A DNA stretch of 64,000 nt, from positions 1-64,000 of the forward strand of contig JAKSYS010000110.1 of assembly GCA_022925895.1 (NCBI GenBank), written 5' to 3'. The position numbers and the translations under genes were made by a program. Under the pieces are notes generated by a model. It did no database searches and was not told where the DNA came from. It saw only the letters and a list, made by a program, of their open reading frames with translations. The first letter of the stretch is position 1; each line of letters starts with the position of its first letter. Below, piece after piece: positions 671 through 48,853 of the stretch. The stretch is from Fragilaria crotonensis. Lineage: Eukaryota; Bacillariophyta; Fragilariophyceae; Fragilariales; Fragilariaceae.

Positions 671-1591
671 TTAGTAGTTGAGGACTCGGCATTTGCTGAG
701 TCCTCTGCATTTTTGATACCCAAGAACCACAATGCTGCCATCATCGGTGTCGTCCATGGTGAGCAATGCGGGAAAGCATCCTCTGATGACACTGCAAGGA
801 AGTGGATACTTGGATAAGTTTTCAACAGCGGCAAGGTGAGTTGCCAAATCAGAACGTTGTTTTGTCATATGTTCTTGTTTGAAAGTTTCATTGGTGATTG
901 GAATACTGTCGATGATGTGCAGTGCCACACCAATCGAAAAGAGGCCACAATCAATCAGATTACCTTGAGTCGGACATGGGCAGTGCTTGACCTGAGTTTG
1001 AGGGCGACCTATCTTAAACTTATCATCACAGACAAAGTAAAGCGCGAATTTGTGAAATTCAGCAAGAAATGCACGAATATGACTTGCTGCACCTCGTGTC
1101 CTTGTCGTAGGTGCACTGCAAAAATCCATCGAGTCGTAGCACTCAATACCCTTGTAGAATTCACAACCATGCTTTCCAGTCAACTCAATCACAAGGACAA
1201 AGAAATGTGACTTATGAACCATTGGCACAACAAGCTTTGATCCCCTGGCAAGGGTGGTGGCTTTGTAGCTCTTCAGGCTCGTTCGAATGATTTCAAGGCT
1301 CTTTCGCGACGTTGATTGGAGCACCAGTTCATTTGCCTTCTCAATGAAGAAAGTTGTTGCTAATCCACCAATGTACAATGGCGGTGCGGATATAGAGGGA
1401 AGCAACGGTGGTGTGGGAGATGGAGCTCCTCTTTGGATCAAGTAGTCCAACAGGTTTGTACTCAAATACTCATTCTCCTGCAGCGCCTGCACATCTTCTG
1501 CATGTGCCGAGAGAGGAATAGAGAACCTTGGGTCTCCCGGAAAAAAGCTCTTCTCAACTGCTGCTCTTCTTGGCTTCTTCTTTGGTGGCAT
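671..1591 (-). CDS. Ulp1-type (C48) cysteine protease encoded by MULE-1
   Basis: This is a 306-residue ORF starting at an ATG with a basic MPPKKKPRR leader. The catalytic set of the Ulp1/SENP fold is visible: His in KSHFFVLVIEL (about residue 128), Asp in ECYDSMD (about 150), and the Gln/Cys stretch CPTQGNLIDCGLF (about 205-217). MULEs of the Kaonashi type are known to carry such SUMO-protease-like domains; their role in transposition is not settled. The ORF ends in a stop codon beyond which the same frame stays open for about 97 more codons into the transposase. The N-terminal FFPGDPRFS motif recurs as HFPGDPRFS in the MULE-2 protease. The catalytic residues are intact here, unlike in MULE-2. 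Confidence 0.8.
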   Translation of the reverse strand: MPPKKKPRRAAVEKSFFPGDPRFSIPLSAHAEDVQALQENEYLSTNLLDYLIQRGAPSPTPPLLPSISAPPLYIGGLATTFFIEKANELVLQSTSRKSLEIIRTSLKSYKATTLARGSKLVVPMVHKSHFFVLVIELTGKHGCEFYKGIECYDSMDFCSAPTTRTRGAASHIRAFLAEFHKFALYFVCDDKFKIGRPQTQVKHCPCPTQGNLIDCGLFSIGVALHIIDSIPITNETFKQEHMTKQRSDLATHLAAVENLSKYPLPCSVIRGCFPALLTMDDTDDGSIVVLGYQKCRGLSKCRVLNY

Positions 1592-18057: not shown

Positions 18058-19044
18058 TAATGAGTTGATAGCACTGGCTGTTGAAGCCATCCATACCTGC
18101 CGAAGACAACAGCGTAACAAATTCCCTTCAAATTACAGCTGTGCGTGGCAGCAATCATTTCAAACTTGTTGACTCCAAGCCGATATGTCTACTGAGATCT
18201 TTCTTTGAAAACTGAAAACTTGTTTTACAAATGTTTACTATGTTTTTGGGCTTTGCTTGAAGAAGCAATATTGATCCACATCAAAACACATAAGGATATC
18301 ATACCTGAATCAAATGTGCATGCTTGATGGGCTGGAAATAATACCTAGAAAGTTATCTTATTACACGTAGTAGCTATTTCACCACCCACTCATCATAATA
18401 CAAGAATGTACTACTACTCCAGTACCAGGAAACAAACTCCAATTTAAGCCACAACTCATGTCCAATTTGTCTGTGGAAAGAATTTCCCTGTCAAGGCTCA
18501 TAACTCACAAGGACATTAACAGCGAGCAAACAACGGTACAAAACAGGGGCAAACAGTGGTATGATAGATTGAAACGGGTGATCAATCCGAACAATCTACC
18601 GATGGTACTTATCAATTTGGCAACAACAATAATTATGATTTAATCATAGGATTTCCATAATTCAAAGCATGTAGAAACTGTGTAGAAAACATACCATGTG
18701 TGTAGAATGTAGTATCGTGTCAGGAAACAGACAGTAGTACAGTATTCAAGCATACAGTACCCGATACCAGCTCAACCATACCAGTAGTCAAGTAGGGTTT
18801 TGTCAGACATCATACCTGAAGGCATATTCTATTTCAAGCATACAAGAGATGGAATGGAGATATGAGGAAGATATTCAAGGCGTGCGTTGTGGTTATATAA
18901 GTACAAGTTAGCTACTCTGATCGTTGGTTACTCCGGTCTCCGGCGGTGTCTACAGCTACTACCAGTAGTCCAGTAGAATACCGGCGAATGTCTTCATGTA
19001 TTGGGCTTAGCGGCAGCACGTTTAATTGAGTTCTAGTTTTTATA
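18058..19044. other. AT-rich spacer, no gene seen
   Basis: This lies between the LINE 3' end and the left terminus of MULE-2. There is only an unremarkable 61-codon open frame near 18458-18643 and some GTAC-type palindromes. Confidence 0.4.
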
Positions 19045-19501
19045 GGGGAAATTACAATATCACGCATTTTTGCCACTTTGCAATATAGTACATTGACTTA
19101 CTATCCACAAATTCGTATTTTACTATATACTACATTTGCAATTGTATTTTACAATATCACGCATTTTGAAAAGATGCATTTACAATATCACGCATTGTTT
19201 TGCCCTTTTTTACTATATCACGCTTTTGTCGCCTGCCATGCTCGAACTCCACGCACAGCATGGTACACCTTCTCGTAACATTCATCCAAGATGGTCAACA
19301 CTCATCACTCCACCATGTCGTACATACACAACGAACATCATCATCACTCACTTCACATGTGTCGTTTGTTTTTTTGTCATCATGCTTTAAGTGCGGTCAT
19401 AATTCTTTGTTGTGCTCTTTTGTTTCAAAAGAGCAACTCCATCTTCATCTATATGGTCGACAAAACTCCACCAAATCTCACATCAACAGTATACCCATAC
19501 A
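19045..19501 (+). repeat. MULE-2 left terminal inverted repeat (457 bp)
   Basis: It is nearly identical to the complement of 26857-27315. Within it the unit TACAATATCACGCATT occurs near 19051, 19150 and 19181, with a variant TACTATATCACGCTTT near 19210. These are likely transposase-binding sites. The similarity resumes for a few bases (AACCCATTGACG) after an indel of about 30 bp at the inner edge. Confidence 0.9.
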
Positions 19502-19579
19502 ACCCATTGACGTATATATCCAATCATCTGTGAGCAATGATCTCATCATGGCAAATGTTGGCAACACTTATCGTTTCTT

Positions 19580-20335
19580 CTACTTATTGTCATTGTTACC
19601 AACTACATTAGGACAAGTTCTTTGGTTGTGCCCTCTCTTTCCACAAACAGAGCATTTGACAGGAGAATCCTCAGCTACAATGAACTTACTGCGTTTGCAA
19701 ATTTGTTTTGTTTTTGGTCGTCCAGATTGCCGTTTTGGCATGTCGGGTTCCTTAGTTTCACCATCATATACAGTCGTTTCCAAGCACACCGGGAAAACGT
19801 TCTTCATGAAAGTTTTGTGCATGATTTCAAATTTGTAGAACGGATGGACTAAACTTCGCAGAACATAACTGAATTCTTTTTCCTGCCATTTCCTGAACAC
19901 TGCACATGCATGCCAACATGGGTAAAGGAAGTCCTGCCATACTCCACAGCTGCACCACTCCAAGTATGGCCTGACCACAAGGACACGGTCTGGATCACCG
20001 TAGGATCGTGCCATCCGTTGCACATTGTCATCGCCATTTTCATCCACTATTGATATTGGTTCCACCACCTTGAAGTCACCACACCCCACCTCCAACTCAT
20101 CGACAGTCATAGATGCAGCGGCATCCCACCTACGCTTTAGAATCTGGGCAACTCTAGGCACCACCTCCGATCCATCTCTCTCAGCATACTTCCTTTGGCA
20201 AGTACACACTCTCGTAGTCATTATGTCAAGAATTTTGTTCACAGCCTCCAGCCATCCAAGATTCCTTGCTTCTGATAACATACTGTTTGCCGACTTGGAA
20301 GTGTTTGAAGTTACAATTCCATACCGTGGAGGCAA
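19580..20335 (-). CDS. MULE-2 transposase, C-terminal part (SWIM finger and zinc knuckle)
   Basis: The segment begins PPRYGIVTSNTSKSANSMLSEAR, the conserved MULE block that carries the third acidic residue (E in LSEAR). It continues to a SWIM zinc finger, CSCGVWQDFLYPCWHACAV (about residue 130-150). Near the C-terminus there is a CCHC knuckle, CSVCGKRGHNQRTC. The frame has no Met of its own at the start: it opens directly after the interrupting segment 20340-21120. It belongs to the same protein as 21178-22338. Confidence 0.85.
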   Translation of the reverse strand: MPPRYGIVTSNTSKSANSMLSEARNLGWLEAVNKILDIMTTRVCTCQRKYAERDGSEVVPRVAQILKRRWDAAASMTVDELEVGCGDFKVVEPISIVDENGDDNVQRMARSYGDPDRVLVVRPYLEWCSCGVWQDFLYPCWHACAVFRKWQEKEFSYVLRSLVHPFYKFEIMHKTFMKNVFPVCLETTVYDGETKEPDMPKRQSGRPKTKQICKRSKFIVAEDSPVKCSVCGKRGHNQRTCPNVVGNNDNK

Positions 20336-20339
20336 CTAA

Positions 20340-21120
20340 GCAGGTGACGGTGACGGTGAATCTGAGTACCACTGAGTACTCTGCCACAGAACACCCGACG
20401 TCGTTATGTGTCAAGATTTACTGTGCTACAAGTACTGCTCAAGATGTGTCGAGTAATGCTGTGTCATCCGGACACTACTCGAACAACGACAGTACACCAG
20501 TATCTAGTATCTGTTCCGGTGATCACGGCAGTGTTGATGGTTGGACTGTAATCCAGGCCAAGGCTAAAGCACAGAAGACTAAAGAAGCTCCACACAGAAG
20601 GAAGACTGAAGAGTCTATTATTGGTGTGAATGGGATTCACAAGGTGGTGAATGGGAATGCAATTGCAGCTGATGGGATTGGAGTCTAGAAATAGAGACTA
20701 ACAGTACCAGTATCTCTGCTGGTTGTTCTGTTGATCATGAATTGCAACATGGCAATGGTGTGGATTGGACTGCAGCTGCAACCAAGCTTACAGGACATTG
20801 AAGAATGAGGTCAACAATGAAAAAGAAGATTAAAGATTCTTTTGTTGAAGTGACAACCAGTGGGATTGAATGGTTGTTCCTGGAAATGGTGGGATTAAGT
20901 ATGTGGTGGATGGGATTGAATTATTACCAGACTCACAAGGATTACATGATTGAAGGCTACAAATGAGAACTTACCTTTGCATTGATGTTTATGGAGCAAC
21001 AAATCAGACAGCTCACAATTATAACAACTAAGATTTAGTACTGGACGAAATAGTACTGAACATTAATACTACGGTATTTGAATCCGATAATCAGATCGGA
21101 AATTGGAACCCGGAATTATT
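20340..21120 (+). mobile_element. Insertion of about 780 bp inside the MULE-2 transposase
   Basis: The transposase reading is lost after a segment reading KVKPEAATYLEGITVK (about 21121, minus strand) and resumes at PPRYGIVTSN (20335). The DNA between reads better on the plus strand (an open frame runs to 20688). It contains two diverged copies of a coding-like motif (NGIHKVVNGNAIAADG and a weaker GIKYVVDGIELLPDS). I found no clear terminal repeats or target duplication, so its nature is open. A host-derived or transposon fragment captured by the element is possible. Confidence 0.4.
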
Positions 21121-21177
21121 TAACAGTTATGCCTTCCAAATATGTGGCGGCCTCTGGCTTCACCTTTCAAATCTCAT

Positions 21178-22338
21178 CTAGCAACAGGCTCGCATTTCGT
21201 GTCGAGATGATTTTGCTATCAAACAGACAAACTTTGCACACTGCTTTCCAAACTTCTGCGTCACATTGGCCTGGATGTGTCTAGCACAGCTCATTTCGTA
21301 CTTATTTGGGAACACCGCTTTCAATGCCTCCTTCAGACCTTCTTTGTCTCTGTCTGAAATGAAAAGAAATGGCGGCCTGACAATGCCGTCTGCATCAGCA
21401 TCGCCATATTCCTGATCATCAATTATTGGTGGACATGCTTTCTTCAACAATTCAAGCATCTTTTTCCACGTCGCTCCATCCTCGTTTCCGGCGCATATCA
21501 TAAACCCAATCGGGAAGATGTCATTGCACCCACTGAGAACTGATGCCATGTACAGAGTTTCCTTGTGTTCGCTCCTCAAATGTGTAGCATCCAAGGACAC
21601 CACCGGCCGAACAAACTTGAGCACCCCATTCATGATACCGGGAAATACACGAAGATCGACAAGTCTCTTCTCCTCATCCCTAGTACACCCAATCACGGAA
21701 CCAGGATTACTTTTTTTCAAGCCCTCCAAAAATGGAATGACCATTTCGAAGTTTTTCACGACAGCATGTCTCACGCTGCTAGTTTGAAAGCGTAGCACCC
21801 TGTACGCCGTCATGTACGAAATGACAACTCCCGACTTCGTTGCAGCTGTCTTCACAACGTCCGCCGGTGTTGGAGCTCCCTTCTTTGTGCGAACAATCTG
21901 ATCGATAACATCATCAAGCACTCCATTTTGCCTATTCTTCCACTTACTCCCATCAGCTGCCTGTTTAGGTCGGCACACCTCACTGTGCATACCCGTAATC
22001 TTTTGGGCGCAGAACATCCCGTCGGATTGCCGCCTGGATATCAATACACGAAACGGACAGTCTACGTGCTCCACACATTGAAATTGTTTGAAACAGTCGC
22101 TAATGGAACGTTGCACTCTTAAACAATTTCCCGATCTGACCTCATACTTTTCGATGAACGGCACTACCTCCTCCAAGGTCGAGAAGCGGTCAATGTTTGC
22201 GTCATCAAGGATATCATACAATACATAATCCTGTGACTTTGTAGCCACCGAACTTCCCAGCTTTCCTTCGACTCCCTCTGCTGTGAGCGTGGAAGTGCCG
22301 ACGCTGTGATCGTGCTTCTCCTTGCCATCGGATTGCAC
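21178..22338 (-). CDS. MULE-2 transposase, N-terminal zinc region and catalytic core
   Basis: From about residue 60 there is a FAR1/WRKY-GCM1-type finger (FKQFQCVEHVDCPFRVLI...MHSEVC). The MULE catalytic core follows. The first Asp lies in VVSLDATHL and the second in FLFISDRDKEGLKEAL, then comes the conserved CARHIQANV. The ORF ends in SSRHEMRACC, but the ancestral protein continues in a neighbouring frame (ISTRNASLLLDEI, then KVKPEAATYLEGI), so there is a frameshift near the end plus a stop. The frame is open upstream without ATG to the stop that ends the protease ORF, and both share the same reading frame. Confidence 0.85.
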   Translation of the reverse strand: MQSDGKEKHDHSVGTSTLTAEGVEGKLGSSVATKSQDYVLYDILDDANIDRFSTLEEVVPFIEKYEVRSGNCLRVQRSISDCFKQFQCVEHVDCPFRVLISRRQSDGMFCAQKITGMHSEVCRPKQAADGSKWKNRQNGVLDDVIDQIVRTKKGAPTPADVVKTAATKSGVVISYMTAYRVLRFQTSSVRHAVVKNFEMVIPFLEGLKKSNPGSVIGCTRDEEKRLVDLRVFPGIMNGVLKFVRPVVSLDATHLRSEHKETLYMASVLSGCNDIFPIGFMICAGNEDGATWKKMLELLKKACPPIIDDQEYGDADADGIVRPPFLFISDRDKEGLKEALKAVFPNKYEMSCARHIQANVTQKFGKQCAKFVCLIAKSSRHEMRACC

Positions 22339-22389
22339 ACTTGACTCGTCACTGCTGTCGCAGGTGACATACTCGTCGTCATCATCGCC

Positions 22390-23456
22390 TTACTCAACCT
22401 TGTCGTCATCGTCGTCGTCGTCGTCGTTGTGATTCTCATTCCTCTTCTGTATCCTCGCCTGCGCTCTGTCTGTTGTTTTTCCCAACAAGAGCTTGCCCAC
22501 CCTGGCAGGACAATCTGCCTCAGCCTGCAACGTCGTCAACACCAGGACAGCAGCGCTCACATCACTGTCGGAACTGTGTCTTCGTTCCTTCTTCGGTTCT
22601 TTATGAACAACCTCCAGCCCGAAACTGTCTAAGATGCTACTTCCGCGCAACTGCGGAAAGCAATCACGCACAACCTGACTTGTTGTTCCCAAGTCAGCAC
22701 CATCCCCCCCAAATACTGTCACCAGCCTACTTCGCAGATTGGTGACGTCTTGTTGCGTAAACGTTTCTCTCGTGATATCAATGCCCTCGATGAGGTGCAA
22801 TACAACGCCCACTGCAAACAAGCCGCAGTCAAACCCATTTTTCTGGAGGGGACAATCGCATTAATGCACCCTGTCAATCAGCGCCGCGTCACTCTCCCTT
22901 AGGTGCGCATGTTTTTTTCGTGCAGAATGAAATTGTGAATGAACAAATTCACAGCCTTTACGATGCTTAGGACATATGGGTTGACCTGACGCATGCGGCG
23001 TACCAGAGAATCATAAAACGTCATGTCATTTACGAACTCTGGCGTTGACATCGAACAGTCCAGGCATAGCACAAAAAAAAGATCTCCTAACACAATCGGG
23101 ATAAGCAGCCTGTTGAGAGTGCGCGGAGATCCAAAACAAGCTTTCATTTGTTGGCGAATACGAGCGACGTTTCGACTACGAGCAAGTTTACGTCCTTTCG
23201 TCGTATCATCTTCGACAACTTCTGGATTGTCGTCCATCAAGTCATTACATGACCGGATGTAAGTATAGGTGCCAAGGCTTCCAATGTGAGATGCATTCGT
23301 GGAAATTACCTCCTGGGGAGGGACAGATTGCTGCAATATAGAGTCCAACAGCAACGTGCTTAACCAAGCATTTGTTGACAGCGCAGAAGTGTCCTCACTG
23401 CTGGGTGAGATCCATCCAGAAAAGCGAGGGTCTCCCGGAAAGTGTGCCTCCTTCAT
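22390..23456 (-). pseudogene. Ulp1-type protease of MULE-2, decayed
   Basis: The N-terminal half (22899-23456, ATG at 23456) shares HFPGDPRFS and the overall layout with the MULE-1 protease. The C-terminal half (22390 to about 22850) has CDCPLQKNGFDCGLFAVGVVLHLI with the Gln and Cys positions. Between them the frame shifts at an A-run near 22905-22915, and an in-frame TAA lies just before CDCPLQ. The His position of the MULE-1 copy (KSHFFVLV) is GDLFFVLC here, so the catalytic His is missing. The Asp block is present (FYDSLV). An Asp-rich tail precedes the terminal stop. Confidence 0.75.
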
Positions 23457-23990
23457 GGTCTATTTGTGGTGATAGCAACACAACTCCCAAGACAACGTCA
23501 AGAGACGAAGACGACCAAGGACGGCTCAGAATTCGATCTACGGTAGTAAAAGTGGTACTCTCACTCATCCGTATGATGTCTAAGTAAAAGACTTAAGTGT
23601 TTGGCATTTTCTTTCATTGCAAAACGTGCCTGCATTTTGCTATCCAAAGAAAACAAAAATTACTGCAGTTGTTGGAGGGATTGGTGTGTCATATCTTACC
23701 ATTCCAGTACACACTAATTTTCATGACTAGAGAGAAACATCAAAATTTTGTTATCCTTCGCGCGCTGGTACGCTAAGTAGTAGTTTATGATTCAAATCCA
23801 AGCGGAATTCAACGTAGAAGATGTACTGGTCGAAGAATTTTGCGCGGACTTTCATAGCCAACACATTTCACTCCGGCATCACTTCCCCACTTTAGATTAC
23901 TTCTTCCTGTCTTCTTGTTGTAAACTCATTCCGGACAATCTTCGATTCCCATCTCAAGGTAACGTCCCGTCACGTCGTCACTACTAAGAG
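23457..23990. other. MULE-2 internal spacer
   Basis: Divergent region between the protease start (minus strand) and the hairpin array/cargo module (plus strand). It probably holds promoters for both. I see no motif I can name. Confidence 0.4.
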
Positions 23991-24234
23991 CGCATCATCA
24001 TTTCCCTGCCATCTAGCCGGGAATGCTTGTTGCGTTGACAAAGTACTTTCTCTCCCTGCCATTTAGCTTGGAGGTCTAAGTATTTGGTCACCTTAGTAGA
24101 ACGAGGTGTTCTTGATGTAGGGTTACACCCGTTGTCACCGAAACAAATTCTGTCTGCCATCTAGCCGACAGGGTTTGTTTCACTGTCAACAACTATACAG
24201 TACTCTCCCTGCCATCTAGCCGGAAGGGTACAGT
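23991..24234 (+). promoter_or_regulatory. Array of four hairpins with a conserved 12-nt loop upstream of the cargo ORFs
   Basis: The loop TGCCATCTAGCC occurs at 24007-24018, 24155-24166 and 24210-24221, and as TGCCATTTAGCT at 24057-24068. Each is flanked by arms that differ in sequence from hairpin to hairpin but pair with each other. Hairpin 3 pairs 24141-24154 AAACAAATTCTGTC with 24167-24180 GACAGGGTTTGTTT (12 Watson-Crick pairs plus two G-U), with weaker outer pairing. Hairpin 2 contains AAGTACTT...CTCC paired with GGAG...AAGTATTT. Hairpin 4 pairs ACAGTACTCTCCC with GGAAGGGTACAGT. Hairpin 1 pairs TTCCC with GGGAA plus outer CGCA/TGCG. Starts are about 50, 98 and 55 nt apart. The array ends 170 nt before the first ATG of the cargo, so a 5' UTR location is plausible. 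Confidence 0.75.
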
Positions 24235-24403
24235 TTTGGCAAACCACCAGCCATGTCGGACTTGCTTGATACCAAATGAAGACAACGATACGTTGAAGGC
24301 GCGATGTCGGACGTCCATTTCTCGGTCAACTGTGCTCAACTTTGGAAAGGAAAATCCACGTGTAGTAGTGGTGGATCCTTCAAGAAAACAGTTAAGTAAC
24401 AAG

Positions 24404-25264
24404 ATGCCGAAGAAACGCAAGCAAAGGAATTACTTTCCTTCCAGTCCAAAGGTGTTGGCGCTTCTACTAAAGTGCTTCCCCATGAACGGCGGTAATTTCA
24501 GTGAAGGTGGGGATTTTGCGACTGCGTTTCGCGATGCCGTGAAGACAGGGACAATGAAGGGCGAGGTCAAGATATGTGGGACACCCTTGCGATGGATTGC
24601 GTATGCGCTTGCTTGCTCTTTCGGTCTCAACAATGATTCCGATCGTAGTACTGCCATCACGCAATTGCGGTCTGTTGATGACATGTTCATGAAGCACGGA
24701 TCATCCTCGGAATTCCTTTCGGAATTCATCCTGATGGATGTCATCTGTAATCGGAAGATTACTCCGACAGCTGCCGCGGCGTTGGGTAAAAGTGGCTCTG
24801 GTACCTTGGGTGACAACGACGTCGTTATGGCACCTGCGTCTGAAGAAGAAGACCTGGATGACGTCAATGACTTCTTCAAGTACAGGACTCTCCTTGCATT
24901 CCTCCCGGGGGTGGGTGTATTTTACGCCGTGAGGGACTGGCGCAGAAAGTCAGAAGGTGTTGATGGTTCCAGGATAGCCATGGACATAAGTTGGTTTCGT
25001 CTAAAGACGGGCATGGAGCACTCTCCACAGTTGGACTTGCAATTTGGGGAGGATGGGTATGTTAAAAGATTTGCCAGCGTTACGAGTGCGGGGTCGCCAC
25101 CGTCTTCTTTTGTGTCTGCGTGGAGAGTTTCGTACCATCCCGCCGCAATAAATTTTCCGCGTGAAGTGTTCAGCCACGTCAACACAGTGCGCGGATCACG
25201 AAGGCCCAAGGATGCCACCGGATCTTATCTCTGGCCACGATGTGGGTGTGTGGCCAGTTCCTGA
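24404..25264 (+). CDS. MULE-2 cargo ORF A, unrecognised protein (286 aa)
   Basis: The first ATG of the open frame is at 24404 (MPKKRKQRNYF, a basic possible nuclear signal). The protein has a hydrophobic/aromatic middle (LLAFLPGVGVFYAVRDW), an acidic segment (SEEEDLDDVNDFF) and no motif I recognise. It overlaps ORF B by 104 bp in a different frame. It lies opposite to the transposase strand and between the protease and the right inverted repeat. It may be the N-terminal part of the same protein as ORF B (joined by an intron or a lost base) or a separate protein. I cannot tell which. Confidence 0.6.
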   Translation: MPKKRKQRNYFPSSPKVLALLLKCFPMNGGNFSEGGDFATAFRDAVKTGTMKGEVKICGTPLRWIAYALACSFGLNNDSDRSTAITQLRSVDDMFMKHGSSSEFLSEFILMDVICNRKITPTAAAALGKSGSGTLGDNDVVMAPASEEEDLDDVNDFFKYRTLLAFLPGVGVFYAVRDWRRKSEGVDGSRIAMDISWFRLKTGMEHSPQLDLQFGEDGYVKRFASVTSAGSPPSSFVSAWRVSYHPAAINFPREVFSHVNTVRGSRRPKDATGSYLWPRCGCVASS

Positions 25265-26321
25265 CCGAGCTCAAGAATACAACCGCCGCCTTGTCAACTC
25301 TAATTCCACGAGGGTGGGTGGTCGTCATTACGCTCCTGGATGCTTGCATCTTAACATCCCGGATACTTGCTGGATTGTTGATCCTGAGGAACGCCCATTC
25401 GTTGACATCATAGTTGACATTGCGCCACCAGTGTCAAGCACGATTGGGAGGAAGTCTGTCATCATGATCCGAAGCATTCTTGATGCATCACTCAAGTCGC
25501 AGTATTGTCATCTGAAGCAACTATATGATGTTGTCGGTTGCCTAGACGCAATTGTGGAACACAACTCACTTCTGCGTCGGCATGTATCTGTTGGCACGGC
25601 GAGACAGAACAAAGGAGATGTTGGGACAATGCATGCCATCGTGACACGAGTGCTCCTTGACGGATCGGGTACTGTTGGGTACGCCACTAACTATACTAAG
25701 GTGCCGCAAACAGTACTGAAAAGGTTTATCGTGGCGTTCGCAACCGTCGGTATGTGCTGTTTTCCCGATGTGCTGTCTGTTGTTCAACACATGGAAGCCA
25801 ATTCATCTCTTCCACCCATCGCTCCAATGGGTGAGAATGACTGCAATGGAATCCGGGTGGGTTACACGATTGATATGAGTGTTGACCTAGGAAACGTGTC
25901 GCATTTCGACGTAAACGACGCGTCGCAGGGCTTTAGTGTGTGGACGGAGGAAATGCCCGGTTGTGCATCAAACTGGTACTTGATCTTTCCCAATTTGCAC
26001 GGAAGGAGGCCATGCGGAACGAAGTACAATGGCATTGCCGTCAAGCTTTATCATGGGACAGCCATAAGTTGGGACGGACGTGCTGTGAGACATTGCACGT
26101 CGGTGTCTCGACCGGATGGGCCAGGTACAGCACCAGTACGCTCGGGGGGGGGTTGTTGGAATGGCAACAATCACTTATATGGCACCTTCACGGCAGCCAA
26201 GGAAAAAATTGTGGCGGCAGGTCGATGTCGTGCTTCTGGAAATAGTGCGGCAGCAGATGTTGTCACGAATGTGGCACATTCAAATACAAGGCGCCCGAAG
26301 AGACTACCACGAGGTGAATGA
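25161..26321 (+). CDS. MULE-2 cargo ORF B, 2-oxoglutarate/Fe(II) dioxygenase-like protein (386 aa)
   Basis: Residues about 222-350 show the pattern of a double-stranded beta-helix oxygenase. His248-x-Asp250 lies in NVSHFDVNDASQGFSVWTEE, followed by NWYLIFPNL and NGIAVKLYHGTAISWDG. A second His, 311, lies in AVRHCTSVSRPDG, then NNHLYGTFTAAKEKIV. The 61-residue HxD to H spacing suits 2OG-Fe(II) enzymes. TET/JBP-type DNA oxygenases are known cargo of other transposons (KDZ elements of fungi), which is why the association matters. The 2OG-binding Arg/Lys is not certain. The first 100 residues are of unknown fold and may start later than the ATG at 25161, since the frame overlaps ORF A. A G9 run at about 26145 lies just after the second His but does not break the frame. 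Confidence 0.55.
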   Translation: MKCSATSTQCADHEGPRMPPDLISGHDVGVWPVPDRAQEYNRRLVNSNSTRVGGRHYAPGCLHLNIPDTCWIVDPEERPFVDIIVDIAPPVSSTIGRKSVIMIRSILDASLKSQYCHLKQLYDVVGCLDAIVEHNSLLRRHVSVGTARQNKGDVGTMHAIVTRVLLDGSGTVGYATNYTKVPQTVLKRFIVAFATVGMCCFPDVLSVVQHMEANSSLPPIAPMGENDCNGIRVGYTIDMSVDLGNVSHFDVNDASQGFSVWTEEMPGCASNWYLIFPNLHGRRPCGTKYNGIAVKLYHGTAISWDGRAVRHCTSVSRPDGPGTAPVRSGGGCWNGNNHLYGTFTAAKEKIVAAGRCRASGNSAAADVVTNVAHSNTRRPKRLPRGE

Positions 26322-26856
26322 GAAGGACAACGAAATAAAGAAGATCACCACTGGATCCCATGACCGTAATGACAGCGATGACGAGGCAGAAACATACATT
26401 CGTCGTTGTATTCGGCATGGTTGTCGTTACAACGATGACGACGATGTTTTGATGGGTACTGCGAGAGAGAGATGCAGGAGGAGGAAGGGACGGCACGTCA
26501 ATTCCAGTCTGACCTGGAAATGACGAGTGACGAAGACTGTCCTAGAGTGCAGGCACGGAGGAGGCAGGCAATGCGTTTTTGTTTGTTGGGTCTGGATTTG
26601 TACAGACCTAACGGCAATAAAGAATGCTGTTCAAAAGATACTGATGATGAGGATGAAGAAGACGATTGATGTTGATGTTAATGATAACTAACTTGCACCG
26701 GAGCAACTGCCATGGATAACGGTAGCAATGTGAGTACAAAGGAAAAGTAGTGGACACACTTGTAAGGCAATGGCATGTTGCCTTTCATGGACTTTGCTAC
26801 CTCAGTAGGTTGGTCGTCAATGGGTTGTTGGTTGTACTGTACTGTGACGCAGATCC
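26322..26856. other. MULE-2 internal spacer after the cargo module
   Basis: A low-complexity Asp/Arg-rich open frame on the plus strand ends at 26523. The region is rich in GATGA/GACGA runs. No supported gene. Confidence 0.4.
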
Positions 26857-27315
26857 TGTATGGGTATACTGTTGATGTGAGATTTGGTGGAGTTTTGTCG
26901 ACCATATAGATGAAGATGGAGTTGCTCTTTTGAAACAAAAGAGCACAACAAAGAATTATGACCGCACTTAAAGCATGATGACAAAAAAACAAACGACACA
27001 TGTGAAGTGAGTGATGATGATGTTCGTTGTGTATGTACGACATGGTGGAGCGATGAGTGTTGACCATCTTGGATGAATGTTACGAGACGGTGTACCATGC
27101 TGTGCGTGGAGTTCGAGCATGGCAGGCGACAAAAGCGTGATATAGCAAAAAAGGGCAAAACAATGCGTGATATTGTAAATGCATCTTTTCAAAATGCGTG
27201 ATATTGTAAAATACAATTGCAAATGTAGTATATAGTAAAATACAAATTTGTGGATAGTAAGTCATTGTACTATATTGCAAAGTGGCAAAAAAATGCGTGA
27301 TATTGTAATTTCCCC
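26857..27315 (-). repeat. MULE-2 right terminal inverted repeat (459 bp)
   Basis: This is the inverted partner of 19045-19501, with the same four subterminal repeat units (plus strand: aatgcgtgatattgta). There are a few single-base differences and one T-run length difference. Confidence 0.9.
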
Positions 27316-27667
27316 TTTTTTATACTAGCGTACACCAAGGGTGTAAAAATTTATACCTAGATATAAATTTCGTGAATTTATGCCTAATACCTAGGTGAAA
27401 AAGTCTAAAATTTGACCCCCCCCCATAAGAATGGCATTTTGGAATTTTTTTGGGAACACAATTGACTTATACCCATGATAAAAAATGATCTAAAGGTGTT
27501 AGGCTGTTAGGCTTAGCAGTCGTGCATGTGTACCGGCGTAGTCAAACCGGGTGCGACCGACGACGAAGGTCGCACTGTTGCTATCTCCCAGTCGCAGCAG
27601 ACCTGTTGTACCACGTAATTGTAGTCCTTTCTACGTATATGACGACACAACATATGCATACTCGGAG
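27316..27667. other. Short spacer between MULE-2 and the copia element
   Basis: AT-rich sequence with imperfect repeats of ATTTATACCTAGATATAAAT type and a run of nine C at 27416-27424. No gene is seen. Confidence 0.4.
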
Positions 27668-27876
27668 CGTATAAGTCTCGCCGTGTTGTACTTACCAACA
27701 ACTAGTAGATATAAAAGGAGAAGAACGTAATCAAGATGATAACAAGATAAAATTATAAGCACTAAAGTCATTAGATCCGGGACATAGGAATTTCGGAGCG
27801 AACATCATCTGCTCTTGGTGACGACGTCGATTGCATTGTACAGTAACACAGTAACTAGTACGGCCACCCTTAAACA
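27668..27876 (-). repeat. Copia element 3' LTR (209 bp)
   Basis: Direct repeat of 34062-34270, with no difference seen by eye. On the element's own strand it starts TGTTTAAGGG. Confidence 0.9.
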
Positions 27877-30800
27877 GTCCCCGCGATCCGAACATTACAT
27901 GAACCTGTTGTAGTAAGCCCACGACATAGTCGCACAGGAGGTACCGATACCAGAAGAGACTGGCGGGAAACCTTGGGCATCGATTATAGATTGTAGAGAA
28001 TTGAACCAAGAAGCTCACGACGACGATCAGTTGGCAATACCTTCGTAAATAGATCCGCCAGATTGGTTTGTGTATCTTCCTTGTGCACTTCCAAAACGCC
28101 CGCAGCAGCGGCCTCTCGCACCGCATGGTAATTGATGGCATTGTGTTTCTTACTTAACACGGACTCAGGGATGCTGGTATTCTTTACCACACCCTGATTG
28201 TCACAGTACACCTGCGCGGGCCCTTCCAAAGGGACGCCAAACATTCGAAGCTTATAGCGCAGCGCAATGATAACATCTCGAGCATTCCGCAACGCAACAA
28301 ATTCACTGCCAAACGTTGATGTTTCAACTGTATTCTGTCGACGACTTACCCAAAGAACAGGCGAATTTTGCACAAACACCAGGATCCCTGTATGTGAACG
28401 ACGGGTAACAACGTTGCCCGCATGGTTAGCATCAACAAAAACGTGGATATTTACCGAGTTCCCAAGTGGCTCAGGCATCCGTGGCGGCAACTCTTCTTCA
28501 AGATTTTCATAGAAGGAGGACCAGTCAGGCTTCGCCATCGTCGGCGTTACTGGAACCGGGTCAGTAGGATCAAATATAAAACTGGACTTCTCGTGTTTGT
28601 TCAGGTACGCGAATACATGATAGACTGCCTCCAAGTGTCCGACACGAGGTAACGCGAGATGCTGAGACAATAATGATACCTCCGTATATATATCAATTCG
28701 CCAGAGCTCGACGGCCCATCGGAGGACACCAATCAATTGGGAGTATCTTGAAGCCCCCTCCTCATCGCACTCGTCCGTTGTATCCGTCTCTGGTCGATAG
28801 GTCGTACTGGCGAACGGCGACTTAGCAGTCGTCTTCATGTTCCGGCCATCAGCTTGCAACAACAATTTCACGTTTCGAACGGCATTTTTCACATAAGTGT
28901 GAGCAGAAAAGGCCCAGTACTCGCGTCCAGTCGGGTCACCAGGCCTCGTGACCTTTCGCACGTCTGCACCGAGGTAACGAGTTGGTGGACCGATACTGGC
29001 GGGATTCAATTCGTATCGTGCCTGTATGGACTCGAGGTGAACAGTTGGGTTATGCGATACAATCAGAACATCATCGACGTAAACCAGCATGTACTCATAA
29101 TACTTAAAACCATTCTCTTTCGCATTTGGTCTGCGGTAGACGTCCGGGTCGGCGATTGTTGGAACAAAATCCATTTCAAGTACAGTCGCATTGAACATTT
29201 CACGCCACGCGGCACCACTTGATTTGAGCCCGTATAGTGCCCTGACCACTTTTACAACCGTGCCTTGCCGCGAGCCAAACTCCGGCCCTGCGACAAACCA
29301 AACCTTTTCCCGGCACGGCGCGTTTAGGTATGCATTTCCAACGTCGCATGCGATGATCTCGATATCGTTAAGTGCAGCAATCAAGAAAGCAATTCGTACG
29401 CTGTCACGGCTCACAACACTTGAGTAGGTTATACTTGCTGGTGCTTCCGTCATGTGACCTCCAGCCACAAATCTTGCCTTCCGAGTTAGATCCATTTTTA
29501 CATCGAAAATCATATGACACTTTATTTCTTGGAACGCAACGTATGCTGCCTTGTTCTGTCGCACCTGATCCGGAGTCAGACCATCATCGAATTCAAACGC
29601 AACCATTACCTTTTTCATCTCCTTTTGTATCGCCTTCCACCAGAAATCTGTCCCCGTTTCCTTGTCGATCTGCAGTGCCTCCTGGACGGAGTGAGGCAAC
29701 CTCACCCCATACTTATGACTTGTCTTCCAGTACCTGCTCTTTACTTTTGCAATGATTCGGTTTCGAGTTCGGAGAGTTTCAGACACCCACCATTTGAAGG
29801 CAGGCTCCTCCTGGATACGATTGGCAACGGCATATTCAGCAAGTTGTATTGGGTTAGAGTCCTTGACGTGTTTGAGATCAATCCAATCGGACGAACCATC
29901 GCGCCATTGGCAGAGTAACTTCCACCCTTTAGTTGTCGTTTTCGGAATTCGTCGCCCTCGTCGCGTTAACGTGTACCCATTCGTTATGTCCACGGCAGTT
30001 CTGTCTTTCTTGTGGTCGACAATTTCCTGCAATACTGCATGTCTGCGACCTTCGTCGTCGCACTGGGAGTAAATGTTGTCGGCGATCACATTCGCGTTGT
30101 AACGGTAAACAGATCCATCCTCCAGTGTGCATTCATATTCGCGGGTATCCAACAACGGGTTGGCATTCCTCTTACCGACCGCATTTCCATCGTTGTCTTT
30201 GACACGTTTCGTTACCGTCGCCATGGCAGTTTCACCGTTTGAGTTCACCAGGAATTCCGCACCAAGGTATTGATCAAAGGTGTCAAACTCGATGTCGTCA
30301 GCGTCGGATTTGGGATCTTGCAACATGTCCCCGTATTCCGTCGCCGGCGGAATATCAGGCAAGTCGGGTTCATTGGTCACGTCATCGTCCTGCAAATAGA
30401 AAACATGATTGGGTAACGCAAGTTGAAAGTTTTCGTCATCTAGACGGGTTAGGAGATGCTCATCAAAGGTCGCAATTCTGGTTTTCATGGCGTCAGGCGC
30501 CATGTCAGTGGTGGTGATGTGCTGCACGGTGGAACGTGCAATGACTTTACCTGATTCGGTCAGTACCCAGTACGTCATATCGCTTCCGACTCGTTGAGCG
30601 ATCCCGAGCCAGCGACCGATCTTTGCCTGCTCGTCCGTCATGTCCATCTTTTTCTGATCCCAATACCAGACTCGGTCGTAAAAATCGAAGTCCAGCCATT
30701 CAGATATGTCAATCGTTTCACCTGTCAATTTCTCGAGTCCAGGGCGCTGGTCAACACCTCGAGCTAAGATGGACTGTATCTCCGATATATAGACCAAGCC

Positions 30801-33800
30801 ATAATCCCAGAGTCGTGCTGGCACCTGATTCGACCGCATACGAGTCTTCCATTTTGTTTTGACTTCTCGAATTTCTGTTTCGGCGCGATGATTCTGCGTG
30901 ATACCACGACCCTTCTCGGCTATCCGCAACTTGATATTCAATCGTCGTACGATTTTCATCACTTCGGTGTTCTTACCTGTCTGTTCAGACGCGAAATCGC
31001 AAACGAGAGTCTCCGGTATTCCGACATCGTCAATGAACTCTTGAAGGACCGTGCAATATTTGCACTGGCTTTGGACTCCATTGGGTACACACGGGTAAAA
31101 CTCCCATTCGTAATCAACTGGGCACAAGTGAATCCAGAGAGGGACTTAACCTTCGAGAAAAGAGTATCCATGTAAAATACATCATGAAGCCGCCGCCGGT
31201 GTAGGTTCAGATGATCAACTCGGTACCGACGGTGGAGTGGATGAATCGCATGCCGGACTCCGTGCTGTGTGGTCGTCTTCAAAGTCTTCTTTGCGGTCTC
31301 TAAGCCACATCGAAATTTACGAGCAACAGTCTCGGCGCTCACCTGGGAGTGACGTTCTTTGGCACCCACGAACGCCAAGCCAACTTCGTTCTCGTCACGG
31401 TTAGCTGTTGCCACATGTACCGCGGACACCATTCTCCGTAGGAACGACGCAGGGTCCAACATCGAAAGGTCAGATCCGCAGTGACAGTGTTCCTCGCAAA
31501 ATTGATCACAACGGGGAATCCGATCCAACGCACAGACGTTTCGATACGTCACCTGTTCCATAGTTAGTTTGGTTGATGCTGAAGCAGCAGATATATTTAC
31601 CTCCCCGGGATTCCACGGCGTGTCAATTGTGAGTTCGACGATACGACAGTTCTCGTATTCCCAGGCAGTCGGGACGCGGGAGTCGAAGTAGACAGTCGTG
31701 CCTTGCATGTGGAAGGGAATATGAAAAGCATCGCCAGTGATTCCGAATGCGCGGGTCTTGTCAGTGGGGTCGTCGGAAACCATAAGACCAGCATGACGAA
31801 TCTGATTGGGATTTATAAGGCTCATCTGTAATCGAGATCCGTACCAGAGAACTTGATTAAACCGAAGAATCACAGTTTCGCCAGTGGTGTCATCAGTAAA
31901 GGACGTCGACGCGTTAACAATGGGGATGTTGGTGAGGGGTTGGTAATCAGTGGAGTAGGGGGTGACATCGCAGAAATCACCAGTGTATTCGTCCAGTTGA
32001 AAATTAGGGCCGGCCACACAAGTGTCCGCGTGTGAGTCGAGTTCGCAGCGTGCGACAGTGCCAGGAGCATTCAGGTGAGTGGTTTCAAGAGATTTGATGG
32101 AACGATATCGGTGAGTAGAACGGATGGCGGAGACGTTGTTTTGGACATGCCCCAACGCCAGTGAACGAGTGTTAGGCGTTGGGATTGCCAGTCAATCGGT
32201 TCGCCTTGGTCCAAAACGGCCTCCAGTGCGACCACCACGGTCAGTTGACGAAGTGGACTGTGTCGCAATGGATGATGTTGACGCATCATATTCCACAATA
32301 TCCGTTACGTTCGCTGCAGCCACATTCCGTTCGTCAGCAGGAGCTGGACGATCATTGTGACGTCCTGCGTGACTGCCGCGACCGCCACGACCGCCACGAC
32401 CGCCACGCCCTCCACGGTTGTCACGGCCTCCTCCTCGTCCACTAGTCCCATTCAGGAACTCGCGCCGCTGGTAAACATACGTATGCCCTCCGCATGCACG
32501 GAGCTTGTCCCACTCGTCACTAGTAAAGTTACGGGTGACGTCGGTCACATCGACGCCATTCATAACGACTCGCATCCGATTTCCACCACCGGCGTTACCA
32601 CCGCGACCGCTATTCCGACCACGACCGCGGCCACGGTTGCTACCTCGTCCGGCATTAGTATTCACAGCACCAATATTTCGTTTGTTCTTACCGGGTTCAA
32701 TACTCGCAAAGCGAGATGAAATTGTGCGTGACAACGTAAGACAAGCCTCGTCAAAGTTCGATAAGTAACGGTCACGAATTATGCCGATGGTGGTCTGAAC
32801 CTGGATGTCGTCGTTCTTGATGCCGCGGATTAGCCACTGTACCTTTTGAGCAGGATAAAGGGGTTGTTCAGCATCTTCCATTTCCATGAAAGCTTCATTG
32901 AGTCGCGTTAGATATTTTTCGAATGGAAAGGACGATTCGTTTTTCCAAAAGAGGTTCTCGAGCTTGGCTAGGGCACTAGCGGCGCGCCTCTGATCATGGG
33001 CTTCACCAACATAGTGCTCCCGAAGGAGAAGGTGAGCGGCCCTCCCATCACCATCCTTAACCTTTTCGAACCATGTCTGCCCGTCAGTTTTTGTGAGCAA
33101 GTCTTTGAACAAATGGTATACTTCCCTATTGTCGTCATGATACTGTCGCGTTTGAAACGACGCAGCCCACAACGCTCGAGTGTATTCGTCCGGAGCCTTC
33201 TCCGGGTCAGCATCTGCTGCACGAATCACGTACGAAAGTGGAACACCTGCCTTTCCCATCCTGGAATCGAGGTAATTGGTAACCTTCTTGATCCAATTCT
33301 TGTAGTCATTGGAGACAATCGCGTCTGGGTAGTAGAGCTTTAAGTCAGCCTTGTCCTTACCGGCCTCAGCATTAAGCTCCAAGATGAGTCCATTGATAAA
33401 CTCCGGAGTCAACTCACGGAGGTCACAGTTAACGCCTTCACGGGATTCCTACGAATCCAGTGGGCAATTGCCTTTAACGCCTTGGTCCTGGCCATCCCAA
33501 ACTGAATACGGGTATTGGCTGGGGTTCTCTTGGAATTGCGATCTGCCATGGACTCGATCTCTTTATCGTTATAGATAGCAAGCTGGTCAACCTCCTCGAT
33601 ACCCTCGTATTCTATCAAACGTGTCTGAGCTTGGGTGTCACGAATGCCGCACATATGCAGGACATAACGCATGCCATGATGCTCAAGATCAGGGAACATG
33701 TCCTCGAAATCGATGTCAGCAAGAGCCATCTTAACTATAGGAGATCACACGTGAGGTCCAGAGAACACTCAACATTAGCACGACCGATGACTGTCATAAA

Positions 33801-34061
33801 GGCAGTTGTACCCATGGGGAGCACTATCGGATGACGGATGATCAATCCATCATTGGACACTTCCGTCACGTGGCTGCATCCAGACCACGCAACTCACACT
33901 CGACGAAACGACCCCATGACGGTGGCCAACCTTAATCGTTTCACGACGTCAGAGTGTGACACCCCTTTCTCTCACTCTTGGAGGGGCGGCGACGAATTAA
34001 ATTGCCGTCTTTCACTTCATCTTACTTCCTCATTTCGTTCACTGCGTTGGGTCTGATAAAC

Positions 34062-34270
34062 CGTATAAGTCTCGCCGTGTTGTACTTACCAACAACTAGT
34101 AGATATAAAAGGAGAAGAACGTAATCAAGATGATAACAAGATAAAATTATAAGCACTAAAGTCATTAGATCCGGGACATAGGAATTTCGGAGCGAACATC
34201 ATCTGCTCTTGGTGACGACGTCGATTGCATTGTACAGTAACACAGTAACTAGTACGGCCACCCTTAAACA
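34062..34270 (-). repeat. Copia element 5' LTR (209 bp)
   Basis: Direct repeat of 27668-27876. On the minus strand it is followed by GGTTTATCAGACC, which resembles the initiator-Met primer-binding site common in copia elements. Confidence 0.9.
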
Positions 34271-34974
34271 GGAGTAGATGTTTGTTATCGCCTTGTATCA
34301 ACATATCTCCTCTCTAGTTTTGATAGAGCTGTTTTGATGTTTTGATAGTCCGCATATGTTCCCTAATCGAGCCGGCCATCACATGCAGAAGTGTACGGGA
34401 GTACTGACTTCTACTTACTACTGGTACAGTGTACGGTATTTCTATCCTCAGAGGAGCAGTGTGAGATTCGTAGGTAAAGGCGATATGTAACTTAATTTGA
34501 AATATAATTTATGGAGTCGATTTTTTTAGAAAGCTCAATCGGCTCGAATGAGGGGACATACACGGATAGCGATTTTTTAAAGAGTCCACTCGGAGAGCTT
34601 CGCGCATGTGCACGAGCACGCACGCACGACTGAAAGCCACCTATCTCGCGGAGCCTTGAGTAGAAGTACAATTGTATCAGGTATGCAGGTATCTGTACCA
34701 GGTACTTGTACTAGTACAAGGTTCTTAACTGCTTTCAAAACGGACATCCACATATAGGTAGGTGCCTATGATACAGAATTCGTCCCGTTTCCTTCTTTCC
34801 TCGAGTGCCGGGTATTACTACAAAAAAGTATACAGGATGCTACGTACAAGTACCGGTTTTCAATACCACCACTTGAAAAGGACAGCGTTGCAATCGCGAT
34901 GTCATGAAAGAACGGTCCGTTTGATTGCAAACTTCAGACTTGCTGCCGCTCATTTTTAAGCGTGATAACACTGT
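34271..34974. other. Intergenic, no gene seen; GTAC cluster
   Basis: Between the copia element and the glycosyltransferase-like gene. GTAC/AGTACT palindromes cluster at about 34420-34440 and 34670-34730. The last 200 bp are the likely promoter and 5' UTR of the plus-strand gene. Confidence 0.4.
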
Positions 34975-43405: not shown

Positions 43406-43581
43406 TGCTAATTCCCAGAAGCCTGGAAACCAATGTCCACAACCGCGTCAGAGCGTCGGTCATTATGCCAGACGCCAATGACCTTCACCAAGACCACTCA
43501 ATGGCTCCACTCCCAAGTCCAGCTACAACATTACCATAATTTATGTAGCTCACCTTTATGTCGACATCATCGTGATCAACA
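43406..43581 (+). repeat. Copia 5' LTR (176 bp)
   Basis: Begins TG, ends CA, and looks identical to 48678-48853. Confidence 0.92.
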
Positions 43582-48677: not shown

Positions 48678-48853
48678 TGCTAATTCCCAGAAGCCTGGAA
48701 ACCAATGTCCACAACCGCGTCAGAGCGTCGGTCATTATGCCAGACGCCAATGACCTTCACCAAGACCACTCAATGGCTCCACTCCCAAGTCCAGCTACAA
48801 CATTACCATAATTTATGTAGCTCACCTTTATGTCGACATCATCGTGATCAACA
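48678..48853 (+). repeat. Copia 3' LTR (176 bp)
   Basis: Looks identical to 43406-43581 and is followed by the TCCCT target duplication. Confidence 0.92.

Follow-up and report, generated by a model that had tools for sequence, protein, structure and literature searches.

INTRODUCTION

In the sections of the fungal survey considered here, TET/JBP genes are described as having moved among 11 fungal transposon lineages, with KDZ, Plavaka, EnSpm, ESTA, hAT, Harbinger, IS3EU, and Helitron elements as their carriers (PMC12730594). MuDR elements are named in those sections solely for SET methyltransferase genes in Phytophthora (PMC12730594). In Arabidopsis, VANDAL elements combine VANC proteins with rapidly diverging tandem repeats, according to the portion of PMC10398659 used here.

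Here, we analyze a 64,000-nucleotide stretch of Fragilaria crotonensis DNA (the window), which begins at base 1 of its contig. A preliminary description of this stretch proposed that a Mutator-like element (MULE) carries a 2OG-Fe(II) dioxygenase-like cargo, perhaps related to TET/JBP enzymes, on the strand opposite its transposase. We find that this cargo is a single gene, here called A+B, which is accompanied by an array of hairpins with a CAUNNA loop. Our preferred reading, to which we give a little less than an even chance, is that A+B and the hairpins form a transposon-hopping, probably anti-silencing module, consisting of an enzyme-like protein and its cognate hairpins.

RESULTS

The window contains a genuine Mutator-like transposon

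A genuine Mutator-like transposon spans positions 19045 to 27315 of the window (Table 1). The inverted repeats and the target duplication that had been claimed for it are both present: the repeats are 99% complementary over 435 nt and were extended outward to the two end positions, and copies of 9 bp lie immediately outside them. The elements compared are alike in this respect, with terminal inverted repeats (TIRs) of 435-483 nt in the window, C87, and C22 elements and 9-bp target site duplications matching at 9/9 positions in C22 and at 8/9 in the window and C87. The transposase had also been placed correctly, since its catalytic domain and SWIM finger were both found on the strand opposite ORF A and ORF B.

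Table 1. Positions of the features of the transposon within the window
Feature	Position	Strand	Remarks
Left target duplication, GTTTTTATA	19036..19044		8/9 identical to right copy
Left terminal inverted repeat, starts GGGGAAATTACAATATCACGC	19045..19501	+	435 nt, 99%, then extended
MULE transposase, C-terminal part	19580..20335	-	SWIM finger PF04434, E 1.8e-6; zinc knuckle zf-CCHC_2, E 0.024, below cut-off
717-bp insertion	20409..21125		TG...CA, GTTATG direct repeat; interrupts transposase gene
MULE transposase, catalytic part	21178..22338	-	PF10551, E 2.6e-7, over cut-off
Broken gene matching the C87 element's C48/Ulp1-like protease gene	22390..23456	-	DNA match to C87
Hairpin 1, loop CAUCUA	23998..24027	+	Model match E 5.7e-7; training site of model
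Hairpin 2, loop CAUUUA	24048..24077	+	Training site of model
Hairpin 3, loop CAUCUA	24146..24175	+	Training site of model
Hairpin 4, loop CAUCUA	24201..24230	+	Training site of model
ORF A, N-terminal part of accessory gene	24236..25264	+	Single frame with B at C87, C131, C22
ORF B, C-terminal part of A+B gene	25161..26321	+	Carries invariant H-x-D...H
HxD codons, ORF B H248 and D250	25902..25910	+	H248 25902-25904, D250 25908-25910; invariant 18/18
Distal His codon, ORF B H311	26091..26093	+	Invariant 18/18
Right terminal inverted repeat	26857..27315	-	Extended repeat
Right target duplication, TTTTTTATA	27316..27324		Flanks right TIR

Remnants of an Ulp1/C48 protease gene, which the preliminary description did not mention, also lie within the element. 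Over positions 21126-23515, the DNA is 90% identical to the C87 element, whose protease copy matches PF02902 (E 4.4e-9); the two protease-gene pieces of the window element gave no Pfam match. The only other MULE-like piece recognized in the window, a C48 protease ORF at 671-1591, lies close to the contig end. As the window starts at the first base of its contig, the absence of the module from MULE-1 that the preliminary description claimed is at best tentative.

ORF A and ORF B are parts of one gene

Both open reading frames were confirmed, and the residues H248-x-D250 and H311 reported for ORF B were located at the codons given in Table 1. The view of ORF A and ORF B as two genes was not upheld. 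Better copies carry the two without interruption, in open frames of 808 aa (C87, C131) and 696 aa (C22); they are a single gene that is frameshifted in the window. Its likely start codon is at 24253, and the predicted protein is about 700-800 aa long.

To describe the evolution of this gene, we used 18 copies readable in one frame for the tree, the invariance counts, and dN/dS, with broken copies excluded rather than repaired. The HxD motif, the distal His, and two Arg residues are invariant in all 18. The dN/dS ratio is 0.20 and 0.13 in the two close pairs; four pairs whose dS exceeds 1.3 give 0.09-0.13. A+B is under purifying selection, which, with the invariant HxD...H residues and the many genomic matches of ORF B, puts the observation far outside chance.

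Relatives of A+B lie beside transposases

ORF B has 120 matches genome-wide. Among the 100 merged loci, in which L003/L031, L012/L032, and L023/L033 are duplicate entries for the same place, 80 have a transposase match within 6 kb, against a background of 6.4% of the genome; at 10 kb, the count is 83/100 against 9.9%. This linkage count took all rows of six transposase tables (91, 115, 80, 118, 93, and 34). The MULE tables alone link 30/100 loci and the PF18759 table alone links 20/100. With all tables, 20 of the 100 loci are without an assigned transposase. Of the 18 MULE-A-linked loci, 17 are head-to-head with the transposase, which, with the counts above, bears out the idea of A+B as a repeated MULE cargo opposite the transposase.

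TIRs enclose both the transposase and A+B in the window, C87, C22, C592, and C183 elements. A search for target site duplications at C592 and C183 found none, and a search for Plavaka element ends at C122, C109, and C76 gave nothing clear.

The module has changed transposon partners

The transposases that accompany A+B belong to two Plavaka (CACTA-like) lineages, two MULE lineages, and a third MULE lineage, MULE-C, which is provisional because its PF21056 match (E 0.0035) stays below the cut-off. No similarity was detectable among the MULE transposase types. In the A+B tree, MULE-C falls in the same clade as the Plavaka-1 copies C122 and C466 (support 100), MULE-B groups with other Plavaka-1 copies (support 70), and MULE-A groups with Plavaka-2 (support 77), so that two of the three partner changes depend on supports of 70 and 77. 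Since the A+B module occurs in elements of unrelated transposon types, A+B and its hairpin array have switched partner several times. The presence of A+B in Plavaka and further MULE-type elements was not known to the preliminary description.

This partner switching bears on the possibility that A+B is not an enzyme but a second transposition protein, i.e., a DNA-binding or end-synapsing helper as in other MULE and CACTA elements, with the hairpins as its binding sites. Such a role would fit both the nearly fixed gene order beside the transposase and the repeated structured sites near the A+B gene. However, a synapsis helper is expected to be bound to one transposase and its ends, whereas the same A+B accompanies MULE and Plavaka transposases and even mutually dissimilar MULE types. 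In addition, the window hairpins lie mid-element, away from the TIRs, and the invariant H, D, R, and W residues look catalytic. We regard a helper function as rather unlikely.

A hairpin array precedes A+B

Directly upstream of A+B, and oriented as the gene, lies an array of hairpins with the hexaloop CAUNNA. The array is a new observation that the preliminary description had missed. It reaches up to 11 tandem copies (C829); the strict hexaloop is absent from C592 and C637, and C183 has a single such hairpin. Across 39 sites, the arms are complementary within each site to a degree equalled by 0/2000 permutations. CAT..A is the top-ranked loop in two counts: 17/281 with strict stems, a count that missed bulged hairpins, and 40/93 upstream hexaloop hairpins in a folding-based count covering 13 of the fetched loci, compared with 0/53 on the other strand and 1/151 in coding sequence. 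An Rfam search of the array region gave no family for the array; the opposite strand had one sub-threshold match to a snoRNA (20.7 versus 45 bits; E 0.0077), which was taken as chance.

The stems covary, with a score of 0.394 compared with 0.214 for shuffled sites (reached by 0/500 shuffles) and at most 0.186 when slid. Two of the five stem measures lie within the shuffles (both-sides-changed pairs, 299/500; further pair types, 423/500), and 30% of stem cells are unpaired.

The loop variants CAUCUA, CAUAUA, CAUACA, and CAUCCA track the A+B protein clade and not the transposase clade. The variants follow descent, and descent alone is no proof of a protein-hairpin interaction.

The placement of the hairpins raises the further possibility that they autoregulate the A+B mRNA as a protein-bound translational operator, with a protein role unrelated to silencing. 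Consistent with this, each of the 80 hairpin-model matches with an E-value no higher than 0.031 is located upstream of A+B, in sense orientation. This search covered 66 sources, with the site-bearing loci L002, L008, L012, L017, and L019 outside the set, and the training sites in the window, L027, L029, L034, L035, and L036 match by construction. The window loops lie about 35-245 nt 5' of the likely start codon, and, relative to shuffles, folding is better for the sense strand (z -5.2) than for its reverse complement (z -3.1). However, C466 and C829 bear extra CATCCA hairpins on the strand of a divergent neighbor ORF, and the hairpins may therefore mark more than one transcript. Overall, we consider pure autoregulation unlikely.

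The oxygenase reading is neither shown nor refuted

The proposed 2OG-Fe(II) or TET/JBP identity was not supported in the form given, although the residue pattern and the His spacing fit. The 2-His-1-carboxylate HxD...H triad is invariant in 18/18 copies, and the two His residues are 63 positions apart, compared with 61 in a 2OG protein of the same genome. Such a triad arises in 866/20000 permutations of the invariant residues, which makes it modestly unlikely by chance. Sequence similarity, however, did not back the claim. A profile-profile comparison (hhalign) with 28 of the 30 2OG sequences fetched from this genome (two were too short) was not significant, with probabilities of 0.5-2.4% and a score reached by 18/210 and 22/220 shuffles. 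The best alignment pairs the distal His with the catalytic His, which we do not count as support because 81/220 shuffles do likewise.

Searches of Pfam (13 members), PHROGs (B only), and PDB by sequence (B) and by profile gave chance-level matches for A and B, none of them significant, and no relatives were found in IMG/VR and GTDB, searches that may omit records of this genome. The best match, to arenavirus GP1 (E 0.0099), was judged to be chance because the profile search gave 0.11. Single-sequence AlphaFold models of the window sequences had pLDDT values of 31.5 and 27.9, too low for reading a fold.

In 2OG oxygenases, the Arg or Lys that binds the 2OG carboxylate usually sits on the last DSBH strand. 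In our reading, there is no conserved Arg or Lys at this usual place after the distal His. Invariant Arg residues occur 4 and 1 residues before it, and another site for the carboxylate ligand is possible. Altogether, the reading of A+B as a 2OG oxygenase is neither shown nor refuted.

A narrower proposal, that A+B is a TET/JBP-type 5mC oxygenase in direct parallel to the fungal transposons, draws on the same triad and spacing as well as on the C5-methyltransferase genes of the host (13 PF00145 matches). In the sections considered of the fungal survey, the PE type was itself identified solely through predicted folds and HHpred matches of E 1.4-19 (PMC12730594). Nevertheless, Tet_JBP (PF12851) matched nothing in the genome up to E 1 and was absent from the Pfam matches of the 13 members, no conserved Arg was seen after the distal His, and we found nothing that corresponds to the large A domain at the N terminus. 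We consider this proposal improbable.

Finally, capture of a host gene by chance and its amplification with the elements is already disfavored and, in our view, very improbable: MULEs do tend to pick up host gene fragments (PMC6446971, in the portion considered), but A+B occurs with several transposase lineages in nearly fixed orientations and under purifying selection, and no host-only copy was identified among the 100 loci, 20 of which lack assignment.

DISCUSSION

Under our preferred reading of an anti-silencing module, A+B and the CAUNNA array just upstream of it would be a self-contained unit whose target is the host and not any single transposase. The A+B protein would recognize its own hairpins, whether in extruded DNA or in nascent leader RNA, and would in this way be directed to elements like its own. 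Its HxD...H triad suggests a metal-dependent, possibly 2OG-type, oxygenase that could alter a silencing mark carried by DNA, RNA, or chromatin. A more specific version, which we offer tentatively and hold to be unlikely as a whole, is a new class of transposon accessory system in which an enzyme from a new oxygenase-like family reads CAUNNA RNA hairpins in its own leader to find and protect the element, that the module travels among MULE and Plavaka transposons and its specificity is switched via the two variable loop bases.

If true, the inheritance of a structured nucleic-acid partner together with A+B across transposon superfamilies would be unusual. The four loop variants may represent a specificity code readable from sequence, which offers a testable protein-target pair. 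The module would bear on transposon silencing in single-celled algae and on the ways in which transposons counter it.

The iron-responsive element is an RNA hairpin with a conserved hexaloop. The array resembles it in having, close to a start codon, a conserved six-base loop on paired stems that vary, and differs in its CAUNNA loop, its many tandem copies, and its lack of an Rfam family.

Plant Ulp1/C48 MULEs (KIU/Kaonashi) resemble MULE-A in carrying a C48 protease, as seen in the C87 copy; in the part of PMC13317346 considered, the plant Ulp1 domain was absorbed by VANC-type genes, whereas in MULE-A the protease has a gene of its own next to A+B. VANC is likewise a transposon-borne accessory protein accompanied by lineage-specific short noncoding repeats that diverge between families (PMC10398659, portion considered). 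A repeated lineage-specific noncoding motif is found with A+B as well, but of a different kind: hairpins with covarying stems, in a module common to MULE and Plavaka.

As in the fungal TET/JBP transposons, an HxD...H accessory gene is passively carried from one DNA transposon superfamily to other, unrelated ones, including Plavaka, in a recurring gene order (PMC12730594, sections considered). Mutator is not among the carriers listed in those sections (PMC12730594), and A+B differs from the fungal genes in having no detectable TET/JBP similarity, a large extra N-terminal domain, and an accompanying hairpin array. Transposon anti-silencing modules are known in plants, as VANC, and TET/JBP genes have been proposed to play this part in fungi; A+B would add an independent case, in a diatom.

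The window element and its cargo gene

The preliminary description read the window as holding a Mutator-like element (MULE) that carries ORF A followed by ORF B as cargo on the strand opposite its transposase, and our analysis confirms the cargo. The inverted repeats of the element measure 435 nt at 99% (later extended) and start GGGGAAATTACAATATCACGC; its flanks are GTTTTTATA / TTTTTTATA, and a related copy on contig C22 has a perfect 9-bp target duplication, CTTTAAAAT. On its minus strand, the element also holds remains of a protease gene, which we infer to be C48/Ulp1-like from the copy on contig C87 (E 4.4e-9), whose DNA matches at 90% across window positions 21126-23515. The element looks dead.

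Both ORFs are present as described, but they are one gene (A+B). A single open frame spans them on contigs C131 and C87 (808 aa, stop to stop) and C22 (696 aa); in the window copy they are separated by a frameshift, which was left unrepaired in our analysis. At loci L034, L035, and L036, the A+B frame reaches 1151-1494 aa with an additional C-terminal region.

Features of the window and its contig
Feature	Position	Strand	Remarks
C48 protease ORF	671-1591	-	PF02902 E 2e-6; close to contig start; possibly the truncated end of a further element
Mutator-like element	19045-27315		
MULE transposase piece, SWIM finger	19580-20335	-	E 1.8e-6
Insertion, 717 bp	20409-21125		TG...CA; GTTATG direct repeat; interrupts the transposase; resembles a solo LTR
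MULE transposase piece	21178-22338	-	PF10551 E 2.6e-7
Four hairpin sites	23998-24230		Core TGCCAT(C/T)TAGC; directly upstream of A+B
ORF A	24236-25264	+	
ORF B	25161-26321	+	
Retrotransposon-like stretch	27668-34271		Identical 210-nt direct repeats; long polyprotein-like ORFs; probably a recent insertion
Retrotransposon-like stretch	43406-48853		Identical 176-nt direct repeats; long polyprotein-like ORFs; probably a recent insertion
Second ORF A relative (beyond the window)	93619-94383	-	

A+B accompanies several types of transposase

The cargo occurs far more widely than the window alone could show, and it is accompanied by a structured nucleic-acid partner. The 62.1-Mb assembly (881 contigs), in which the window is C16:1-64000, contains at least 122 matches to A and at least 120 to B, the latter merged to 100 loci. 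When all rows of the MULE and Plavaka (CACTA-like) transposase searches are taken in, a transposase match occurs no more than 6 kb away for 80 of the 100 B loci, compared with 6.4% of the genome, and 20 have none at that distance. The nearest match is MULE-A, the window's type, at 18 loci, MULE-C at 10, and another MULE at 5, which bears out the repeated MULE linkage proposed earlier as a check; it is Plavaka-1 at 29, Plavaka-2 at 12, and another Plavaka at 6. Gene order is nearly fixed. B stands head-to-head with the transposase at 17 of 18 MULE-A loci and tail-to-tail with it for Plavaka-1 (29/29), Plavaka-2 (12/12), other Plavaka (5/6), MULE-C (10/10), and other MULE (2/5, the remaining three being on the same strand).

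The Plavaka assignment rests on PF18759 (E 6.3e-8 and 4.6e-6, above the cut-off); Plavaka-2, itself without a Pfam match, is 24-28% identical to Plavaka-1. The transposase on contig C592 (MULE-B) matches PF10551 (E 6.1e-12), while MULE-C, on contig C183, is a provisional name because its sole match, PF21056 (E 0.0035), falls under the cut-off. Neither BLAST nor phmmer found similarity among the three MULE types. Transposase and A+B are jointly enclosed by inverted repeats in the window and on C87, C22, C592 (33 nt, 94%), and C183 (51 nt, 96%); no target duplications were found at the last two, and no clear ends at three Plavaka elements.

In a B-domain tree of 18 readable copies, MULE-C groups with the C829 copy and the Plavaka-1 copies of C122 and C466 (support 100), MULE-B with other Plavaka-1 copies (support 70), and MULE-A with Plavaka-2 (support 77). 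The best topology therefore requires three partner changes between MULE types and Plavaka, two of which rest on modest support (70 and 77). The dN/dS ratio is 0.20 and 0.13 in two close pairs of copies and 0.09-0.13 in four pairs with dS > 1.3; four saturated pairs gave no value.

A hairpin array lies upstream of A+B

The arms of the four window sites vary between sites yet pair within each. Across 39 distinct MULE-A and Plavaka-2 sites, mean arm pairing is -16.7 kcal/mol within sites versus -10.7 across sites, and none of 2,000 permutations matched the observed within-site total. When the regions upstream of the gene were folded at 13 loci, 93 hexaloop hairpins resulted, and 40 of these carry loop CAT..A; the opposite strand gave 0 of 53 and coding sequence 1 of 151. 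At least one such hairpin occurs at 11 of the 13 loci and at least two at 9. By this folding-based rule, none was found at C637, which has a CAGAAA loop twice, or at C592, where a repeated hairpin upstream of A+B (L033, 6560-7700 region) has CATACA closed by a T-T mismatch, an array variant. Window-wide, 678 CAT..A words yield five such hairpins, four of them in the array, and the folding z score of the array region is -5.2 on the gene strand versus -3.1 on the other.

A covariance model searched over 66 sources (338 kb) gave 80 matches with E no higher than 0.031, spread over 24 of the 32 B-holding loci covered. Since these include training sites and places fetched twice, they speak for specificity and are not an independent count. 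All share the orientation of B and lie upstream, preceding the start of its match by 849-2244 nt. Up to E 1, no match occurred in 30 loci of 2OG genes or in the window outside the array; matches beyond arrays begin at E 0.039, in L040 and, at four B loci, on the antisense strand. The array corresponds to no Rfam family. Additional CATCCA hairpins at L036 68-372 (-), spaced ~99 bp, and L034 335 (-) share their strand with a neighbouring divergent ORF.

Covariation over nine stem pairs in 32 sites scores 0.394, versus 0.214 (sd 0.025) in shuffles (0/500 as high) and at most 0.186 in slid controls; the shuffles ignore kinship of sites; it is preserved in the slid controls, and these are likewise exceeded. 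Stem cells changed on both sides number 48 versus 26.4 shuffled (0/500), whereas pairs with two-sided change (7 versus 6.5) and pair types (21 versus 22.1) do not exceed shuffles. In all, 69.8% of stem cells pair, and the pair adjoining the closing pair (G-C, G-U, or A-U) is never broken.

The loop variant goes with the A+B clade and not with the transposase: it is CAUCUA/CAUUUA in MULE-A, CAUAUA in Plavaka-2, CAUACA in the Plavaka-1 copies of C109 and C529, and CAUCCA, save one CAUUUA, in the C829/C122/C466/C183 clade, where the MULE-C element of C183 has one hairpin. This match is expected from joint inheritance and by itself is no proof of contact between protein and hairpin. The gene-plus-hairpins module is conserved and exchanged among unrelated transposons.

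Is A+B an oxygenase?

The preliminary description read an HxD...H motif in ORF B as the mark of a 2OG-Fe(II) dioxygenase-like module, possibly of TET/JBP type. The triad H240, D242, and H303 (domain numbering; add 8 for ORF B) is unchanged in all 18 copies, as are D297, R299, and R302, and its H-to-H spacing of 63 compares with 61 in a PF13640 protein encoded in this genome. The pattern is only suggestive, since permuting the 56 invariant letters at random produced such a triad in 866 of 20,000 trials. Searches of Pfam, PDB, and PHROGs gave nothing beyond chance level, and profile-profile comparison with 28 2OG sequences of this genome gave probabilities of 0.5-2.4%; among shuffles, 18 of 210 reached its score, as did 22 of 220 when the alignment was fuller. 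Two single-sequence AlphaFold runs reached pLDDT 31.5 and 27.9. Ordinary 2OG enzymes are detectable in this genome (PF13640, 49 matches; PF13532, 7), while PF12851 (Tet_JBP) has no match in it. Missing sequence similarity does not refute an oxygenase, because the PE-type TET proteins of fungi were identified solely through HHpred E values of 1.4-19 plus predicted structures (PMC12730594). A dioxygenase role for A+B is plausible but unproven; a TET/JBP identity is unsupported.

Proposed role and comparison with known systems

A helper bound to one transposase would be of no use to several, which suggests that the module targets the host, and the likeliest problem common to its carriers would be silencing. 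With less confidence, we propose that A+B may bind the CAUNNA hairpins and so find its own kind of element, and that its HxD...H centre might alter a silencing mark. In our view, the structured nucleic-acid partner is the most interesting part.

We found no report of the A+B family or the hairpin array in the open-licence literature. In fungi, 11 transposon lineages, Plavaka included, carry TET/JBP genes, and Mutator is absent from the carriers listed there; the introduction of the same paper states that Phytophthora MuDR elements took up SET methyltransferase genes (PMC12730594). An Ectocarpus survey describes algal transposon genes possibly modifying DNA (PMC12477816), and in plants the known MULEs include some with anti-silencing genes and some with Ulp1 domains (PMC13317346). 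VANC21 localises to noncoding repeats whose short motifs differ between VANDAL families (PMC10398659), and A+B might find CAUNNA hairpins in a similar way.
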